Source of the DNA: a virus
Virus record (IMG/VR): IMGVR_UViG_3300017782_000266
Coordinates: 1 to 21,721 of that record
Reading direction: 5' to 3' (one strand)
Length of the DNA stretch: 21,721 nucleotides
The notes beneath the pieces are model-generated. The model made no database searches, had not been told where the DNA came from, and saw only the letters and a program-made list of their open reading frames with translations. Positions 5,643 to 16,234 of this stretch are shown here, one piece after another. The number at the start of each line of letters is the position of its first letter. Within the stretch, counting starts at the first letter, position 1. Position numbers and translations under genes: made by a program.

Positions 5643-5644
5643 TG

Positions 5645-5716
5645 TACCCCCACCTGGAATCGAACCAAGATTACCGCTTTAGAAGAGCGGAGTTTTATCC
5701 GTTAAACTATAGGGGC
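5645..5716 (-). tRNA. tRNA-Arg (anticodon UCU)
   Basis: A complete cloverleaf reads on the minus strand. The acceptor is GCCCCTA with TGGGGGT (two G-U pairs). The D stem is GTTT/AAAC with GG in the loop. The anticodon stem is CCGCT/AGCGG around loop CTTCTAA, which places TCT at 34-36. The variable loop is four bases, and the T arm is CTTGG-TTCGATT-CCAGG. The discriminator is A and no CCA is encoded. It would decode AGA (and AGG by wobble) arginine codons. It sits between the HNH gene and the 67-aa gene, in the same orientation. Confidence 0.92.
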
Positions 5717-6300: not shown

Positions 6301-6591
6301 TTACTTAGAGAATCGTTCCGCGAACCCCCCTGAGTAATCTTTTTCTTGTTCTATCTCTCCGCTTTGTTTCAGATCCCTTACCATCTGCTCAAGCCTTTGC
6401 CTCTCAACAAGCAGTTCTTTGGCGTCTACGGCGGTCTGTTTGATGGACTGAAGCTCAGCCTTTCTGGAGGAACCTCCAGCATCTGGGTCTACAGGCTTCT
6501 TGATCTCTTCGATCATGTTGTTGATGGCGATCTCCATGCTGTGCATGAGCTTCTCCGCAGCATCAATCGTTGTGAACTTCTTCCTCGACAT
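6301..6591 (-). CDS. Hypothetical helical protein, 96 aa
   Basis: I place the start at the ATG at 6591 (MSRKKFTTIDAAEKLMHSM) because a longer reading frame would run far into the GroES-like gene upstream. Even so the two overlap by 29 bases. The protein is almost entirely predicted helix, with a heptad-like charged stretch (residues ~48-80, e.g. AKELLVERQRLEQMVRDLKQ). This suggests a short coiled-coil dimer. It may be a head-assembly or scaffold-like accessory, but there is no recognisable family signature. Confidence 0.6.
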   Translation of the reverse strand: MSRKKFTTIDAAEKLMHSMEIAINNMIEEIKKPVDPDAGGSSRKAELQSIKQTAVDAKELLVERQRLEQMVRDLKQSGEIEQEKDYSGGFAERFSK

Positions 6592-7165
6592 AAAGCAAAT
6601 CTTCAGCTCTGGTTCTGTAGTACTCCTTACCGTCAATCTTAAGTCTGTAGTCACGGTTCTTTGCGAACCCAACAACAGCCCCTGCAGACAACCCCATGTA
6701 GTCGGTCTCCTCATTGCCGTAGACAAGTCTGCCCTTAGTCGGCAGCTTCTCTTCTAGCTCCACCATGTCGATAAGATCTGACGGGAACTCCTCCTCTTCT
6801 TCTACAGCTTCGAGCAAGGTCCACCCACCAAGGGTCTTAATCTCACCTGTGTCTTGACACTTGAATGCAATGGCTTGTGAGTTGATGGCCTCGGGGTCGT
6901 ACTTAACAATATAGTGGTCGTCCTCACCTGTGAGCGGCTGGCCACCCTGCATAACCACAAGGTGGTGGAAGTACAGAGTATCCCCTGGCTTGACTCCTGT
7001 GTTGTACTTAAATGGGGCTGCGACTACAGGACCTTCGTTGACCCTGTACTCAAACTCCCCCATCTCAAATCGAGTGTCTATGTACAGTTCTAGACCACTG
7101 TCAGTTTTGATCGTGTCGTTGATGAGCTTCTTCAGCTCGACGACAAAGAAGTTGAACGTTTTCAT
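6563..7165 (-). CDS. GroES/Cpn10-like co-chaperonin
   Basis: A 200-residue, mainly beta protein. Its first strand block is FNFFVVELKKLINDTIKTDS. A central segment, NEGPVVAAPFKYNTGVKPGD then TLYFHHLVV, matches the 'G.Vvavg.....v..GD.V.f' core of GroES. A mobile-loop-like stretch (QPLTGEDDHY) follows, and the C-terminal part has GAVVGFAKNRDYRLKIDGKE and then YYRTRAEDLLYVEEE, matching the final 'D.LYV' strands. It is about twice GroES length, with an acidic insert (EAVEEEEEFPSDLIDMVELE). Phage Cpn10-like proteins (for example T4 gp31) replace host GroES during folding of the major capsid protein. The late-gene location fits. The family call is by pattern and was not aligned. Confidence 0.68.
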   Translation of the reverse strand: MKTFNFFVVELKKLINDTIKTDSGLELYIDTRFEMGEFEYRVNEGPVVAAPFKYNTGVKPGDTLYFHHLVVMQGGQPLTGEDDHYIVKYDPEAINSQAIAFKCQDTGEIKTLGGWTLLEAVEEEEEFPSDLIDMVELEEKLPTKGRLVYGNEETDYMGLSAGAVVGFAKNRDYRLKIDGKEYYRTRAEDLLYVEEEVHND

Positions 7166-7900: not shown

Positions 7901-8203
7901 TTAGTTTAGTGATATACCCAATCCATCAAGAAGGTCATCGAGGTCTGGTCCTTCGCTACCCTTATCTGACGGAATGAATGTTTCCTCCACAAAGTTAAGG
8001 ACACTTAGCATTTCATCCTCGCTGTCCATGTTGTAACTGTATATCGCTCTGAGTCTTTTTTCGTCTGGGTCTTCCTCGTCATCTTCTACAAGACCAGTAA
8101 CCATAAGAGATAGTACCTCATCGCGTACCCCATACTTTTCTATGACTCGCTCCATTTCGAAAGCAAGTCTCTGTATCTCTAGCAAGAAGCCCTCTTTGTC
8201 CAT
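7901..8203 (-). CDS. Acidic hypothetical protein, 100 aa
   Basis: The ATG at 8203 (MDKEGFLLEIQRLAFEMERV) is chosen because upstream in-frame starts would lie inside the oppositely oriented winged-helix gene at 8216. The protein is helical at the N-terminus (residues 1-45) and then strongly acidic (VEDDEEDPDEKR, later PDLDDLLDGLG). A middle motif, RAIYSYNMDSEDEMLSVLNF, suggests a small alpha/beta fold. It is coupled closely to the following gene (one-base gap). No family recognised. Its start lies inside the promoter-like box of the divergent gene. Confidence 0.6.
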   Translation of the reverse strand: MDKEGFLLEIQRLAFEMERVIEKYGVRDEVLSLMVTGLVEDDEEDPDEKRLRAIYSYNMDSEDEMLSVLNFVEETFIPSDKGSEGPDLDDLLDGLGISLN

Positions 8204-8210
8204 ATCTTTG
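8203..8210 (+). promoter_or_regulatory. TATCTTTG box 5 nt before the winged-helix gene
   Basis: The plus strand reads TATCTTTG, a perfect TAnnTTTG -7 match, followed by five bases and the ATG at 8216. Such a short distance implies a nearly leaderless transcript. The same box and spacing recur on the minus strand at 12675 and 14556. No clear TTG at -33 was found. The box overlaps the start codon of the divergent minus-strand gene. Confidence 0.5.
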
Positions 8211-8215
8211 GTTTT

Positions 8216-8674
8216 ATGGCGATTAGGAAGGGTTCCAAGAAGCGTCTCTTCAGGGAGTTCTCCCCTCTTGATCAAAGGTACGTCAAAAGGAACTACCTCA
8301 AACATCTTCAAAGGGTGACGAGAGAGTTCTGTTTGAAAAGAGATCTCTTCGAGAGAGAGCTTATGTTTCTGCTTTGGGCATACGATCTTGAGTTCTTTAC
8401 GATCAAGCACGCTGCAGAGGACATGGGTAAGAGTGCTGCACCTATGGCTCAGAAGACGCTATATCCGCTCATGAAGGAGGGGTACATCTATAAACATTTT
8501 GACAAGCTCACCCCGTCAGACAAGAGGGAGGATCATTTGTTCAGAGATGAAACCAAGCATAACTACAGAGTGAGGTATGCTATCACGCAGAAGGCAAGGT
8601 TGTTGGTGCAGGACTTCTACAGGAGCCTAGAGTCTCAGATATCACTTGGGAACCAGCCGTCGCCGTCCATGTAA
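8216..8674 (+). CDS. Winged-helix DNA-binding regulator (MarR-like)
   Basis: A 152-residue basic protein. The central part reads as a winged helix: helix RELMFLLWAYDLEFFTIKHA, then AEDMGKSAAPMAQKTLYPLM as the helix-turn-recognition-helix. The strand and wing pair is KEGYIYKHFDKLTPSDKRED into KHNYRVRYAITQKARLLVQD. This is close to the layout of MarR/PadR regulators, where a two-stranded wing ends with 'y.lT.kg'. It is the only plus-strand gene inside the minus-strand block and has its own TATCTTTG box. Its last 40 bases are antisense to the end of the next minus-strand gene. It is a good candidate for a regulator of the late operon or of the early-to-late switch. Confidence 0.75.
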   Translation: MAIRKGSKKRLFREFSPLDQRYVKRNYLKHLQRVTREFCLKRDLFERELMFLLWAYDLEFFTIKHAAEDMGKSAAPMAQKTLYPLMKEGYIYKHFDKLTPSDKREDHLFRDETKHNYRVRYAITQKARLLVQDFYRSLESQISLGNQPSPSM

Positions 8675-9030
8675 GATTGACTGACATAAGAGAACGAAGT
8701 GGGTAGGATGTCCCCAACGTTTATCTCAACGCCGTGATTACTGTTAAGTTTGGTTGTGACAGCCGTCTTCTTCTGAGTGGTATACTCTGGCATAGAGTCG
8801 AATAACTCAGCTGTGTCTAGTGAGGCGTGGGGTTTGATCTTGTCAGTAGAGGAGATAGTGAGAGCTGATCTGCCATCGGAGTGTGTGACACACCCACAGA
8901 ATTTGTTAGTGACATCATCCTGAGCTCTTATAGACCTAGGTCTTTGGATAGTCCATAAGGCCTGAGAGATCTCCTCGCACCTCTCCTCAGAGGTTTTGGA
9001 ATCGGTAGATTGGACTATGATATAGCTCAT
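8635..9030 (-). CDS. Hypothetical protein, 131 aa
   Basis: A 131-residue protein that starts by a 4-base ATGA overlap with the preceding appendage gene, so the two are probably coupled. Sequence features: MSYIIVQSTDSKTSEERCEE, then a strand-rich middle (NKFCGCVTHSDGRSALTISS) and a Ser/Thr/Asn-rich end finishing YMDGDGWFPSDI. It has no transmembrane segment. It may be a partner of the appendage protein, such as a chaperone or a tail component, but this rests only on coupling. Its 3' end overlaps the winged-helix gene tail to tail. Confidence 0.55.
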   Translation of the reverse strand: MSYIIVQSTDSKTSEERCEEISQALWTIQRPRSIRAQDDVTNKFCGCVTHSDGRSALTISSTDKIKPHASLDTAELFDSMPEYTTQKKTAVTTKLNSNHGVEINVGDILPTSFSYVSQSYMDGDGWFPSDI

Positions 9031-9902
9031 GGGTAGATGGAGTAGAAGTCGTTGATATTGGTTTCGATGCCCGATTCGTTAGCATTATATGAGGGATAGA
9101 TAATACTCTCCTGTACTTTTTTTGCCCCTCCCGCAGTTAGTGCTGGGTGTTTTCCAATGAAGTAAGCGTTTGCCGTTCCTGTGCCTTCTGGATCTGTATT
9201 CGTTCCAACCGATGCGCCGTTCAGCCTCGCGTGCCTTGTTGTGCCGTCATACGTTCCTCCTTGCAAAATTTGTGTGTCTACATCGATGTTCCCACCAACT
9301 GCAATCTCAAACCCATCGCCTTGACAATGGTATCTAATGTCGTTCCCGCTGCTATTTGTTCCAATCATAACACCCCTCGTCGAGCCTCCAATTTGAACTC
9401 CTGCGGCGTATTGGTTTCCAATGTTGCGGATAGCGTAGCTACCAACTACATATAACTCATTCTCCAAAACCGAGTTGAAATCTGTGGCGCTACTACTGAA
9501 AAGCCCGTCTGACTGATCCAAAAATTCCGCAGCAGGCTTGCCGTTCAACGTAACCACGCCCGTCGCGCTGTCGTAAATCTGCGGCTGACTGCCTGATGTC
9601 GTCTGCGTCGCGTCGTTTGAGCCCGCTTGGTCATACCAAGTCGTTACGAAACCGTTCGTGCCTGAGCAGAACGTAGTAAGCGCAGCTGTATCTAGTTCGT
9701 TGTTGACAAACCCGATGTCTTGCTCTGCGTCATCAGACTCTCTGCGAACCCTTATAGCGCTTCCTGTGTAATCATTCGTTAGCTTACGTAGACTATACGC
9801 TGCAGCAGCTCCAGAATAATCGTCTAGCAGTCCTGAGAAGGAAGCGGGAGACTCAAGACCTGAAGGACTTGCTTTCGTTAAAGATAATCCTAGTCCTAGC
9901 AT
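9027..9902 (-). CDS. Phage appendage protein with arabinofuranosidase/LamG-like beta-sandwich
   Basis: A 291-residue protein. After a short leader the sequence reads YSGAAAAYSLRKLTNDYTGS, AIRVRRESDDAEQDIGFVNN, ELDTAALTTFCSGTNGFVTT and WYDQAGSNDATQTTSGSQPQ. This is the characteristic 'AYSLR..Y.GsairvRr.sd..eqdIGF' followed by 'fvttWYDQsG..nda.Q' pattern of alpha-L-arabinofuranosidase B-like/concanavalin-like domains, which are frequent in marine phage tail proteins. The rest is beta-rich, with NGKPAAEFLDQSDGLF and ARLNGASVG, and ends INDFYSIYP like LamG-type sandwiches. Its likely role is carbohydrate binding or hydrolysis at the host surface. Enzymatic activity cannot be judged from these motifs. 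Confidence 0.75.
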   Translation of the reverse strand: MLGLGLSLTKASPSGLESPASFSGLLDDYSGAAAAYSLRKLTNDYTGSAIRVRRESDDAEQDIGFVNNELDTAALTTFCSGTNGFVTTWYDQAGSNDATQTTSGSQPQIYDSATGVVTLNGKPAAEFLDQSDGLFSSSATDFNSVLENELYVVGSYAIRNIGNQYAAGVQIGGSTRGVMIGTNSSGNDIRYHCQGDGFEIAVGGNIDVDTQILQGGTYDGTTRHARLNGASVGTNTDPEGTGTANAYFIGKHPALTAGGAKKVQESIIYPSYNANESGIETNINDFYSIYP

Positions 9903-9903
9903 G

Positions 9904-10380
9904 TTAAAGAGCTTTGAACATTACTTCGTAGTAAACCTTTCCTTGATCGTCTCTACAAGCTTTGAGGCAGCGACCACGATTAAGGCCATCGTAAACGAAA
10001 GACACATGAACCCAGTCAGGATTATTCTGATCACCAAACTCCCAAATGAGTTGATCAAACTCCACGTTCTCCCTGATGCATTCAAAGATCTCTGAGTTAG
10101 TGCATCCTCCAAATACGTCGGCATCCAAGTCGAGCGCACGTCCCTCCACGTGCTGACTACGAACTGAGCCACCGATCGCCTTGTTGAGCTCAGGCGAGCG
10201 ATACCCGCTCGACACGTGTATAGGAACTCCGAGACAGTCCCTAACAGGTTGAAATACATTGACCGCAGTCTGTCTAAGATTTTCTGTAACCCACTCATCT
10301 GGTTCATTATTGATCCCTAGTCTCTTTGCCGTGAGGCTTTTTGTACACTCCGCGAGTGATAGATTTTCGGACAGCTTCAT
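9904..10380 (-). CDS. Endolysin, peptidase M15 family (D-Ala-D-Ala-type)
   Basis: A 158-residue protein with the full M15A signature. SSGYRSPELNKAIGG (57-71) is followed by SQHVEGRALDLDAD, with zinc ligands H77 and D84. A later WVHVSF gives the third ligand H125, and E114 (LIWEFG) is a likely catalytic acid. Proteins of this kind cleave peptidoglycan cross-links or stem peptides and are common endolysins of Gram-negative phages. No signal peptide is visible, so release probably depends on a holin not identified here. The gene ends one base before the appendage gene start. A possible 49-aa frame overlaps its first 74 bases. Confidence 0.88.
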   Translation of the reverse strand: MKLSENLSLAECTKSLTAKRLGINNEPDEWVTENLRQTAVNVFQPVRDCLGVPIHVSSGYRSPELNKAIGGSVRSQHVEGRALDLDADVFGGCTNSEIFECIRENVEFDQLIWEFGDQNNPDWVHVSFVYDGLNRGRCLKACRDDQGKVYYEVMFKAL

Positions 10381-10456
10381 TATTTAGTCTTCGCTTCTCG
10401 TTCTGTACGGAAGGGTCTTTTCTTTTCTTCTTCGGGTTGAAGTAGTGCTTGTTCAT
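10307..10456 (-). CDS. Possible very small basic protein, 49 aa (overlaps endolysin start)
   Basis: A 49-codon frame begins at the ATG at 10456 and ends at 10309-10307. It reads MNKHYFNPKKKRKDPSVQNE, then KRRLNNEAVRKSITRGVYKK. It is highly basic and has no hydrophobic stretch, so it would not be a holin. Against it, 74 bases overlap the endolysin in another frame, more than at any other junction here. For it, the first 75 bases are otherwise non-coding and the composition resembles the other small basic proteins of this genome. A TATTTTCG near-match to the -7 box lies upstream at 10533-10526. Treat as tentative. Confidence 0.35.
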   Translation of the reverse strand: MNKHYFNPKKKRKDPSVQNEKRRLNNEAVRKSITRGVYKKPHGKETRDQ

Positions 10457-10482
10457 TCACACTCGTTAACAGCCGATATTTG
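10455..10482 (+). promoter_or_regulatory. Candidate promoter/operator of the exported-protein cassette
   Basis: Positions 10455-10471 read ATTCACACTCGTTAACA. The same 17-nt sequence with one change occurs at 15302-15318, upstream of the early block. In both places it lies 80-90 bases before a plus-strand start codon. Just after it, 10475-10482 reads GATATTTG, a seven-of-eight match to TAnnTTTG, with TTC 20 bases upstream. GTTAAC inside it is palindromic and could be bound by a dimeric protein. Confidence 0.5.
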
Positions 10483-10559
10483 GAAAAGTCGAATCTTCAT
10501 CCTATCATCGTATCAGAATCAATCACGAAAATACAAACAAACACTTAAAACAAACCACC

Positions 10560-11090
10560 ATGAATACCTTCATTAACCTCACCCTTCGGGTCTTGCGTTG
10601 GACTGCAATCTCTGTGTTCGCTTTCTTCGCTTCTATCTTCGCACTGGCGTTCACCTTCGACTGCTCTATGGATCGACTGCTTAACCGAGTGTCAGTTTCG
10701 TTTGTGCAGTCTGTGCGATCAGACATGCCGATCCAAGTGCTCAATGTAGATCGCGTGGTAGGGTTGAATATCGCAGACTTCGACAGCGTACTGACTACTG
10801 GGGAAATCTACGACTACGACGTAGAGCGTGACATTCACATCTTTAGAGAACAACCTGACAGCGTCATGAGCTTTTACATTGAGATGCCTGGGGTATACGT
10901 TGTTTCAACGGCTGGACCTCAGGGAGAGAACGAACCATTCATCCTTCTGTTCGACGAGGACTGGGTTCAGCAGTGCATCGCAAACAATCAAGTGGTTACA
11001 AACGATATCGGCAGCTATGTAACGGCGCCTGGATATGAGTTAGACGCATCAGGTGATCAGCCTGTGTATCGATGCTCTGACATTCAATAA
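10560..11090 (+). CDS. Membrane-anchored exported protein, 176 aa (cassette protein 1)
   Basis: The N-terminus carries one strong hydrophobic segment (about residues 9-33, RWTAISVFAFFASIFALAFTF) after a positively charged start, an uncleaved signal anchor or signal peptide. The remaining ~140 residues would be periplasmic and are beta-rich, with PDSVMSFYIEMPGVYVV and EPFILLFDEDWVQQC. It ends in a Cys-containing tail, YRCSDIQ. The same order of motifs appears in the next gene, so the two look like diverged paralogues. The leader is A/C-rich with no Shine-Dalgarno sequence. No family recognised. A plus-strand exported protein within a late minus-strand region suggests a moron-type accessory, perhaps acting at the host envelope (superinfection exclusion is a guess). 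Confidence 0.75.
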   Translation: MNTFINLTLRVLRWTAISVFAFFASIFALAFTFDCSMDRLLNRVSVSFVQSVRSDMPIQVLNVDRVVGLNIADFDSVLTTGEIYDYDVERDIHIFREQPDSVMSFYIEMPGVYVVSTAGPQGENEPFILLFDEDWVQQCIANNQVVTNDIGSYVTAPGYELDASGDQPVYRCSDIQ

Positions 11091-11105
11091 TCTGACATTC
11101 AATAA
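11076..11105 (+). repeat. Perfect 15-bp tandem duplication spanning the stop codon
   Basis: TCTGACATTCAATAA occurs twice back to back (11076-11090 and 11091-11105). The first copy encodes the last four residues (SDIQ) and the stop. The second repeats them in frame after the stop. Immediately after, ATAAAAAGAAAAGCC (11102-11116) leads into the next ATG, and the same 15 bases recur at 11643-11657 after the second gene. Confidence 0.9.
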
Positions 11106-11116
11106 AAAGAAAAGCC

Positions 11117-11632
11117 ATGCGTAACCTTATTACAGCAGCCGCCCTCCTGATCATGAGTGCAACTTCTTTCTCTCAATCGCTTAACGACATCCTTAGTGGG
11201 AAGGTTGAGGTGAGCGCAGAGACAGCTCTTAAGCATAGCGTTCTCGAAGCTATGATCCCAGATGTCGGCACTCCAGACCAAGTGGCTGTATTTAAGGTTA
11301 ATGGTATCGACGTAGACTTCCCTTACTGTGGTGAGGGGGTTCTTCCTATGGACCTTATGACTTACGAAGAAGCAGACTTTGAGATGTACGCTACATTCCG
11401 AGCCCCTTCAGATACTGTTTTCTGCCCCTTCTATGAAAAGGGTACATACCTGATCATGTGCTTCGATGCAGATATGAACGCGCTGGGTAAGGGATTAGTA
11501 ATCATGATGAACGACAACTTTATCGATGCGGGCCTGTCTCAGGGGTTCTACGGTGTCGACGGTAGCGTGGTCTACTCAAACAACCCTATGCGTATCGCTA
11601 GGCAGCAGGCAGAGTTCCTTTGCTTCAACTGA
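11117..11632 (+). CDS. Exported protein with signal peptide, 171 aa (cassette protein 2)
   Basis: It begins MRNLITAAALLIMSATSFSQ, a typical cleavable signal peptide with a cut expected near residue 19-20 (SFS-QS). The mature part is about 150 residues, beta-rich, with five cysteines (including FPYCGEG, VFCPFYEKGTYLIMCF and a near-terminal FLCFN) that could form disulfides in the periplasm. It shares a motif order with the previous protein: a V-rich strand, an acidic stretch, PSDTVxxxFYxxGTYLI, then LVIMMNDNFIDAG and a terminal Cys. It is probably a diverged tandem paralogue. It is followed by a strong terminator, which closes a two-gene transcription unit. No known family recognised. Confidence 0.77.
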   Translation: MRNLITAAALLIMSATSFSQSLNDILSGKVEVSAETALKHSVLEAMIPDVGTPDQVAVFKVNGIDVDFPYCGEGVLPMDLMTYEEADFEMYATFRAPSDTVFCPFYEKGTYLIMCFDADMNALGKGLVIMMNDNFIDAGLSQGFYGVDGSVVYSNNPMRIARQQAEFLCFN

Positions 11633-11651
11633 ACCAACCTCCATAAAAAGA

Positions 11652-11673
11652 AAAGCCCCCGCAAGGGGGCTTT
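11652..11673. terminator. Bidirectional intrinsic terminator
   Basis: A perfect 9-bp hairpin, AAAGCCCCC-GCAA-GGGGGCTTT, has a stable GNRA-type tetraloop. It is followed by TTTCTTATTT on the plus strand, and on the minus strand by a U-rich run (CTTTTCTTTTTAT). It lies between convergent genes ending at 11632 (plus) and 11706 (minus) and can stop transcription from both sides. Confidence 0.92.
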
Positions 11674-11705
11674 CTTATTTCATCAATAGCAGACTTCTTG
11701 TTTGC

Positions 11706-15323: not shown

Positions 15324-15397
15324 AAACTTGACACGTATTTGTTCCCCTCACGATGTTTGTACCGAATCATTCATCAAACCATTCAAACCACATACAC

Positions 15398-15571: not shown

Positions 15572-15837
15572 ACATCGACAACATCATGAACATCCATACC
15601 TGTGTTGACATCGCAGGTCTGACCGACGATTTGGTCAACGTGAACTTCGCCATCATCCTCGGCAACGAGATAGAAATCAAGGAGATGTTGTACTGGGAGT
15701 TTGATTTCGAGTACGACATCGAGGACATGATTGAGGACATCGAAGAACTCATCCCCTTCGCGGCAGTAGTCGGCAACGGCACGGACCTGTTCGTGCTCAA
15801 CGCAGACACCACGCCAGAAGATTTTGTCATCTGCTGA
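15568..15837 (+). CDS. Acidic early protein, 89 aa
   Basis: The ATG at 15568 sits at the end of the 25-base repeated leader. The 89-residue product is very acidic with alternating strands and helices: VNVNFAIILGNEIEIKEMLY, then WEFDFEYDIEDMIEDIEELI, FAAVVGNGTDLFVLNADTTP and a terminal Cys (FVIC). Its strong negative charge would suit a DNA mimic or host-protein inhibitor, functions common among early phage proteins, but this is only inference. The stop lies in the repeated CTGACACAATAACCCC motif. Confidence 0.7.
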   Translation: MNIDNIMNIHTCVDIAGLTDDLVNVNFAIILGNEIEIKEMLYWEFDFEYDIEDMIEDIEELIPFAAVVGNGTDLFVLNADTTPEDFVIC

Positions 15838-15871
15838 CACAATAACCCCAAACCCTCAACGTTATATAGAC

Positions 15872-16234
15872 ATGAAGTACGCACGATACGACTCCCTGAC
15901 AGGCCAAGGCATGACACGATACGACTCCCTGACAGGCCAAGGCATGACACGATACGACTCCCTGACAGGCCAAGGCATGAACGCAGGATACTGCATCTGC
16001 GATGGCGATGCATACGCGGCAACCGATGAGACTCTGTTGATTCAACTCATGGCCATCGAATCCATCGGTGAATCCGAAGTGGTCTCCGAATACTTGGAAC
16101 GTCTCTACGAGGACGGAATGTACTACTACACCACGTGGGAGGACGATGACGATGCGGACGACGAGCCAACCCAAGAGGAACTCAATCAAGTGCGCCAAGC
16201 AATGTTCAACCTGTTCAGAACCGACAACAAGTAA
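15872..16234 (+). CDS. Early protein with triplicated N-terminal RYDSLTGQGM motif, 120 aa
   Basis: The start at ATG 15872 (MKYARYDSLTGQGM) follows a C/A-rich leader; an earlier in-frame ATG lies inside the previous gene. Three perfect 11-residue repeats (RYDSLTGQGMT/N) precede NAGYCICDGDAYAATDETLL, a helical middle and YYYTTWEDDDDADDEPTQ. A widespread small phage protein family shows the order 'D.TGkGMn.Gy...dg..y' followed by 'YYTeWe' near the end, and this gene fits. In that family the G-x-G-M-N segment normally occurs once, so the extra copies look like a recent 33-bp expansion. Each unit contains an in-frame ATG that could act as an alternative start. Function of the family is unknown. 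Confidence 0.72.
   Translation: MKYARYDSLTGQGMTRYDSLTGQGMTRYDSLTGQGMNAGYCICDGDAYAATDETLLIQLMAIESIGESEVVSEYLERLYEDGMYYYTTWEDDDDADDEPTQEELNQVRQAMFNLFRTDNK
15884..15982 (+). repeat. 33-bp in-frame tandem repeat, three copies
   Basis: Units start at 15884, 15917 and 15950, each beginning CGATACGACTCCCTGACAGG. They are identical except in the last bases of the third copy, where the sequence passes into AACGCA. The length of 33 keeps the reading frame and adds eleven residues per unit. Near-perfect identity suggests recent slippage or recombination. Confidence 0.95.

Follow-up and report, generated by a model that had tools for sequence, protein, structure and literature searches.

Morons are optional phage genes that carry a promoter-like element and a terminator and lie amid, or against, conserved late genes; their products are small membrane or exported proteins, and their base composition usually, although not strictly, differs from that of the flanks. 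In acr-aca loci, a conserved promoter stands before a changing set of small genes of unknown origin, whose products are cytoplasmic and which are linked to an HTH regulator. Phages of marine Bacteroidota are abundant, and to our knowledge few exclusion systems have been described in them. In other phages, T4 Imm and Sp, P22 SieA and the Ltp lipoproteins are small proteins of the membrane, periplasm or cell surface that prevent a second phage from entering (PMC11436027, PMC10883804, PMC3952083). A moron-type example is gp15 of the temperate phage HK97, which PMC11436027, citing Cumby et al. 2012, gives as a superinfection exclusion protein.

The locus analysed here lies in a virus record of 21.7 kb (21,721 nucleotides), the whole of which is referred to as the window. 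Its terminase shares 48% identity with the one from an uncultured Caudoviricetes genome, and with those of Flavobacterium phages about 41%. The minus strand holds the late genes and the plus strand, from position 15353, the early genes, and the late half is broken by two plus-strand genes, A and B (Table 1), which fill what is termed the slot below. Like a moron, the slot combines optional presence with a promoter-like element, a terminator and small membrane or exported products, and it is placed amid late genes; it differs in that divergent phages use one fixed site and one conserved element for at least seven families of cargo. The G+C content of A and B is 48.4%, against 48.1% for the window, so there is no compositional sign of foreign origin. 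Judged by its anatomy, and with a promoter that is putative, the cassette would be a moron, base composition being the only one of the features examined that departs from the type. With acr-aca loci the slot shares the combination of one promoter (putative in the slot) with many cargo, but its cargo is predicted to be exported, and it has no linked HTH regulator, as a nearby wHTH-like gene is uncoupled from occupancy. The cargo resembles T4 Imm and Sp, P22 SieA and Ltp in being small and, by prediction, envelope-directed; however, the family libraries gave no sequence similarity to these proteins, and therefore the cassette is not assignable to a known exclusion family. Moreover, Ltp proteins are lipoproteins, whereas the signal-peptide cargo of the slot is predicted to be cut by signal peptidase I.

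Table 1. Features of the cassette and its surroundings, in window positions
Feature	Position	Strand	Remarks
Small core gene, wHTH-like by eye	8216..8674	+	other plus-strand gene of the late half
M15 peptidase (endolysin)	9904..10380	-	PF08291, E = 1e-18; phrog_894 endolysin; adjoins the slot in most, not all, phages
Divergent intergenic region between minus-strand M15 operon and plus-strand cassette	10457..10559		35.9% GC
Promoter-like element, TTTG-N20-TATCATCGTATCAG	10479..10516	+	conserved in relatives; found only in the slot
Gene A, 176 aa	10560..11090	+	N-terminal membrane anchor and predicted beta-rich extracytoplasmic domain; codon score, dN/dS; same-slot relatives L001 (82%), L108 (23%)
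18-bp direct repeat flanking B, left copy (TCAATAAAAAGAAAAGCC)	11099..11116	+	L001, whose slot holds A only, has one copy
Gene B, 171 aa	11117..11632	+	signal peptide ending SFS|Q, predicted beta-rich domain; same-slot relatives L005, L006, L007, L092, L099, L112
18-bp direct repeat flanking B, right copy	11640..11657	+	extends into the left arm of the terminator
Bidirectional rho-independent terminator	11651..11674		shared end of cassette and opposing late operon; scores on both strands; RNA fold z = -4.8

The two genes and their products

A and B both score as coding under a codon model built from core genes, in agreement with a preliminary description of this DNA that had placed two plus-strand genes between minus-strand late blocks, and comparison with relatives indicates purifying selection on both (dN/dS of about 0.11-0.13). 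Both products had been described as exported, which applies to B with its predicted signal peptide; A is instead predicted to keep a long hydrophobic N-terminal anchor that has no cleavage site. The beta-rich character ascribed to them agrees with the predicted models, whose confidence is low (mean pLDDT 48.5 for A and 59.1 for B). No known family had been recognised in either protein, and searches of A, B and the other cargo against Pfam, PHROGs, NCBIfam and PADLOC likewise gave no usable match. The PDB, searched by sequence with the family profiles, returned no match, and Foldseek with the B and A models gave none at E <= 0.001, these models being too weak to trust. The B profile found no match in one genome per GTDB species; against phage records, A had no match and B two weak partial ones only (E = 0.3).

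The two proteins had also been regarded as paralogues sharing an ordered motif. BLASTP detects no similarity between them (11.5 bits), whereas a comparison of profiles with members added (hhalign) aligns A 94-147 to B 92-147 with P = 0.0025, shuffled decoys equalling the scores of the best members one to four times per ~3000. The low-confidence models have matching strand order and one helix in the C-terminal half. When relatives are included, the motif is reduced to G-x-Y, the hydrophobic strand that follows and one Asp, since the proposed 'terminal Cys' and 'D-S/T-V' are missing from the more distant members. From profiles and models together, A and B may be very distant homologues, and they are not clear paralogues.

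Occupancy of the slot and exchange of its cargo

Related contigs were gathered with the neighbouring M15 endolysin as the sole bait, and the interval from the endolysin to the next structural gene was examined. Among the 41 closest loci selected in this way, 17 are occupied by a plus-strand gene for an exported or anchored product, 19 are empty and 5 end too early, the hydrophobicity filter of this count missing one cargo family (C, below) that was recognised separately. All 17 occupied loci contain the element, and the 19 empty ones have neither the element nor a comparable plus-strand gene; A and B, whose variable occurrence was thus checked, do not belong to a core that all relatives share. 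The slot extends beyond this cassette and takes two states, the cassette being a case of the occupied one. It is a single fixed genomic position, with the endolysin/receptor-binding block on one side and the internal structural genes on the other; this architecture is well supported. The phage family that carries the slot is marine and probably infects Bacteroidota, and its members are of podovirus type and kin to Flavobacterium phages. Within the window, an unannotated basic ORF of 49 aa (MNKHYFNPKKKRKDPSVQNEKRRLNN..., 10307-10456, minus strand) overlaps the start of the M15 gene, and a similar reading frame is found in the relative L027.

The endolysin is not a constant companion of the slot. 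Four of the nine slots among the 18 stretches returned by an element-only scan (terminase 67-68% identical) belong to phages without a detected M15 homologue; when such a homologue was searched for in the phages L117, L122, L125 and L127, two records over 50 kb among them, none was found, and element and exported cargo are present. The idea of a strict endolysin partner is weakened by these phages, and position, not the endolysin, is therefore the constant part.

With four core proteins used for a tree, part of which are absent at some of its 42 tips, the slot state must have changed at least 17 times. How the cargo changes can be followed in pairs of relatives. Up to +69 from the start of the element, just short of the start codon, L015 matches L024 over 7411 bp with 95.5% identity; beyond this point they carry unrelated cargo (family C versus family D). 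Identity breaks at +60 to +61 in the pairs L112/L090 and L094/L099, seven codons into the signal peptide in L091/L005, and about at its end in L125/L127. The B genes of the window and L005 align from one base ahead of the start codon through the stop codon, at 89.7% nucleotide identity and with unalignable flanks, in backbones whose TerL and portal proteins share 73% and 64% of their amino acids; L007 has a closer backbone (terminase 85%), yet its B is only 41% identical to that of the window. The breakpoints show that the mature exported protein is swapped by recombination, with the element, the leader and, in several cargo, the signal peptide staying in place. Conserved promoter-like element, terminator, optional presence and horizontal exchange together uphold the earlier view of a self-contained, moron-like cassette.

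The terminator, noted before as strong and bidirectional, scores as such on both strands, and a perfect-stem terminator hairpin lies 3' of 21 of the 23 cargo genes. The two 18-bp repeat copies around B are 94% identical and represent sequence around the terminator's left arm. In L001, whose terminase is 97% identical to that of the window, A stands alone and one repeat copy follows it. These sequences are most simply read as an addition of B behind A at the 18-bp repeat; the window slot holds two cargo genes, B having presumably been stacked there, at the left arm of the terminator.

At least seven cargo sequence families were distinguished, none with an assigned function, and all cargo have predicted signal peptides or anchors. 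Family A (window, L001, L108) is anchored and has no signal-peptidase site, as is the case for the commonest one, D, of 55-59 aa with a single hydrophobic segment or anchor. Family B occurs in the window, L005, L006 and L007, with distant members in L092, L099 and L112; C (115-117 aa) in L015, L046 and L114; E (112 aa), which resembles carboxypeptidase regulatory-like domains with E = 2e-4, below the curated cut-off, in L091; and F (111 aa) in L106. The families G (L117, L127) and H (L125), of 110-113 aa, are weakly related to each other. In Bacteroidetes, a Q-rule describes a glutamine after the signal peptidase cleavage site (PMC5837995). A Q directly follows the predicted site in all signal-peptide cargo examined (in L092 by eye, ILA|Q), which agrees with a Bacteroidota host and favours processing of these cargo by signal peptidase I, speaking against lipoproteins. 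The B-carrying phage L006 encodes a second exported protein outside the slot (8033-8677, minus strand), of 214 aa with a signal peptide ending in LLAQ.

The promoter-like element

The upstream element of the cassette, also mentioned in the preliminary description, could be delimited more precisely (Table 1). Across occupied slots its general form is TTTG-N20/21-TAnnATnnnATCAG, every copy having a spacing of 20 bp or 21 bp; for the L014 group the element was tested by its core, AATGAGATCAGC. It occurs once per record in 16 of 16 records, a reversed control pattern giving 0. IMG/VR was scanned as a whole with two forms of the element and no gene reference, returning 27 and 18 stretches, some of them near-copies of each other, and slots were found in 22 of the 27 and 9 of the 18 matches. 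These include L095, counted through its cargo and structural neighbour because the endolysin lies outside the examined stretch, and L131, counted since it and L007 are one contig.

Bacteroidetes promoters have the form TTTG / TAnnTTTG (PMC6847099), and the element is close to them in spacing and in the -33 box, with no more than a partial likeness in the -7 box. A sigma-70 scan of the region gave no more sites than chance, as expected for Bacteroidota. A general early promoter was considered and rejected, because the extended element is found nowhere else in the 16 records. In many copies the spacer that separates the boxes contains a short inverted repeat (GGAG...CTCC), a possible regulator site; its mean length, 4.15, is only a little above the 3.2 of shuffles. 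The wHTH-like gene, for which a library search gave no match, was considered as a slot-specific regulator; it is found in empty-slot phages and is missing from its usual place in the occupied L014 group. As its presence does not track occupancy, it was rejected in this role.

Possible functions of the cargo

In the proposed model, the likeliest of the readings considered although we hold the balance for it to be even, the product exported from this occupied, moron-type cargo slot would exclude competing phages. The host RNA polymerase would transcribe the cassette outside the late programme; B would leave through Sec, be cleaved by signal peptidase I and act in the periplasm or beyond, while A would be held in the inner membrane by its anchor with its domain outside. 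Envelope action against competing phages, which we infer and which the preliminary description had also suggested alongside changes of the host surface, would then amount to superinfection exclusion, the cargo hindering adsorption or DNA entry of rival phages, and the diversity and swapping of cargo would be an outcome of competition between phages. Against this model stand the lack of any usable similarity to known exclusion proteins in Pfam, PHROGs, NCBIfam and PADLOC, the backbone-like G+C of A and B, the partial likeness of the -7 box to Bacteroidetes promoters, the position next to the endolysin in most phages, where a part in lysis would also fit, and the fact that a virulent phage benefits from exclusion only within its own infection cycle.

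It could also be argued that the exported cargo controls the adjacent lysis enzymes, as a periplasmic antiholin or endolysin inhibitor, given that the slot adjoins the M15 endolysin in most phages, that such regulators are exported or anchored too, and that family D has the size of small lysis regulators. Such a control of lysis timing is unlikely, since the endolysin is kept beside an empty slot in 19 of 36 resolved loci, nearly the same endolysin is paired with at least seven unrelated cargo families, and L117, L122, L125 and L127 have element and exported cargo with no homologue found of the M15 type, the type that was sought. An improbable alternative to the same degree is that the cargo blocks an envelope-located host defence and not other phages. 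Small unrelated proteins swapped fast at one promoter-like element recall anti-CRISPR loci, and export would direct them to envelope targets; however, empty slots are as frequent as occupied ones, and the cargo has no PADLOC match, a weak point as that library holds mainly defence proteins.

Small, exported and predicted beta-rich proteins might instead change how the infected cell adheres, takes up nutrients or resists stress and leave other phages unaffected, and the weak likeness of the L091 cargo to carboxypeptidase regulatory-like domains points in this direction. This conditioning of the host envelope explains exchange at the promoter-like element between near-identical phages less readily than antagonism does, and we consider it quite unlikely. 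A role of A and B in the virion structure or in periplasmic assembly, as their location in the late half might suggest, is highly improbable, because they lie on the strand opposite the virion genes with a separate terminator, and slot genes are missing in about half of the relatives.

Returning to exclusion, an extended version seems possible rather than probable: the conserved, regulated promoter, leader and signal peptide would form a docking site for recombination, where divergent phages trade mature exported effector domains and so share a rapidly reshuffled envelope arsenal against rival phages. If the products do exclude phages, the slot would be a record of which phages compete. The near-identical L015 and L024, with their different cargo, make the function directly testable, and the 38-39-bp element alone retrieves envelope-directed, uncharacterised proteins from viral metagenomes, which provides a rule for finding effectors.

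Some further features of the window were recorded. On the minus strand, the product of 9027-9902, which is strongly divergent among relatives and includes an arabinofuranosidase-B-like stretch (PF09206, E = 4.7e-10), is probably a receptor-binding or tail protein; 6563-7165 encodes a GroES-like co-chaperonin of the phage (phrog_13932), and a tRNA-Arg (tct) at 5644-5716 adjoins the terminase gene. On the plus strand, an early ORF at 15824-16234 has RYDSLTGQGM three times in tandem near its start.
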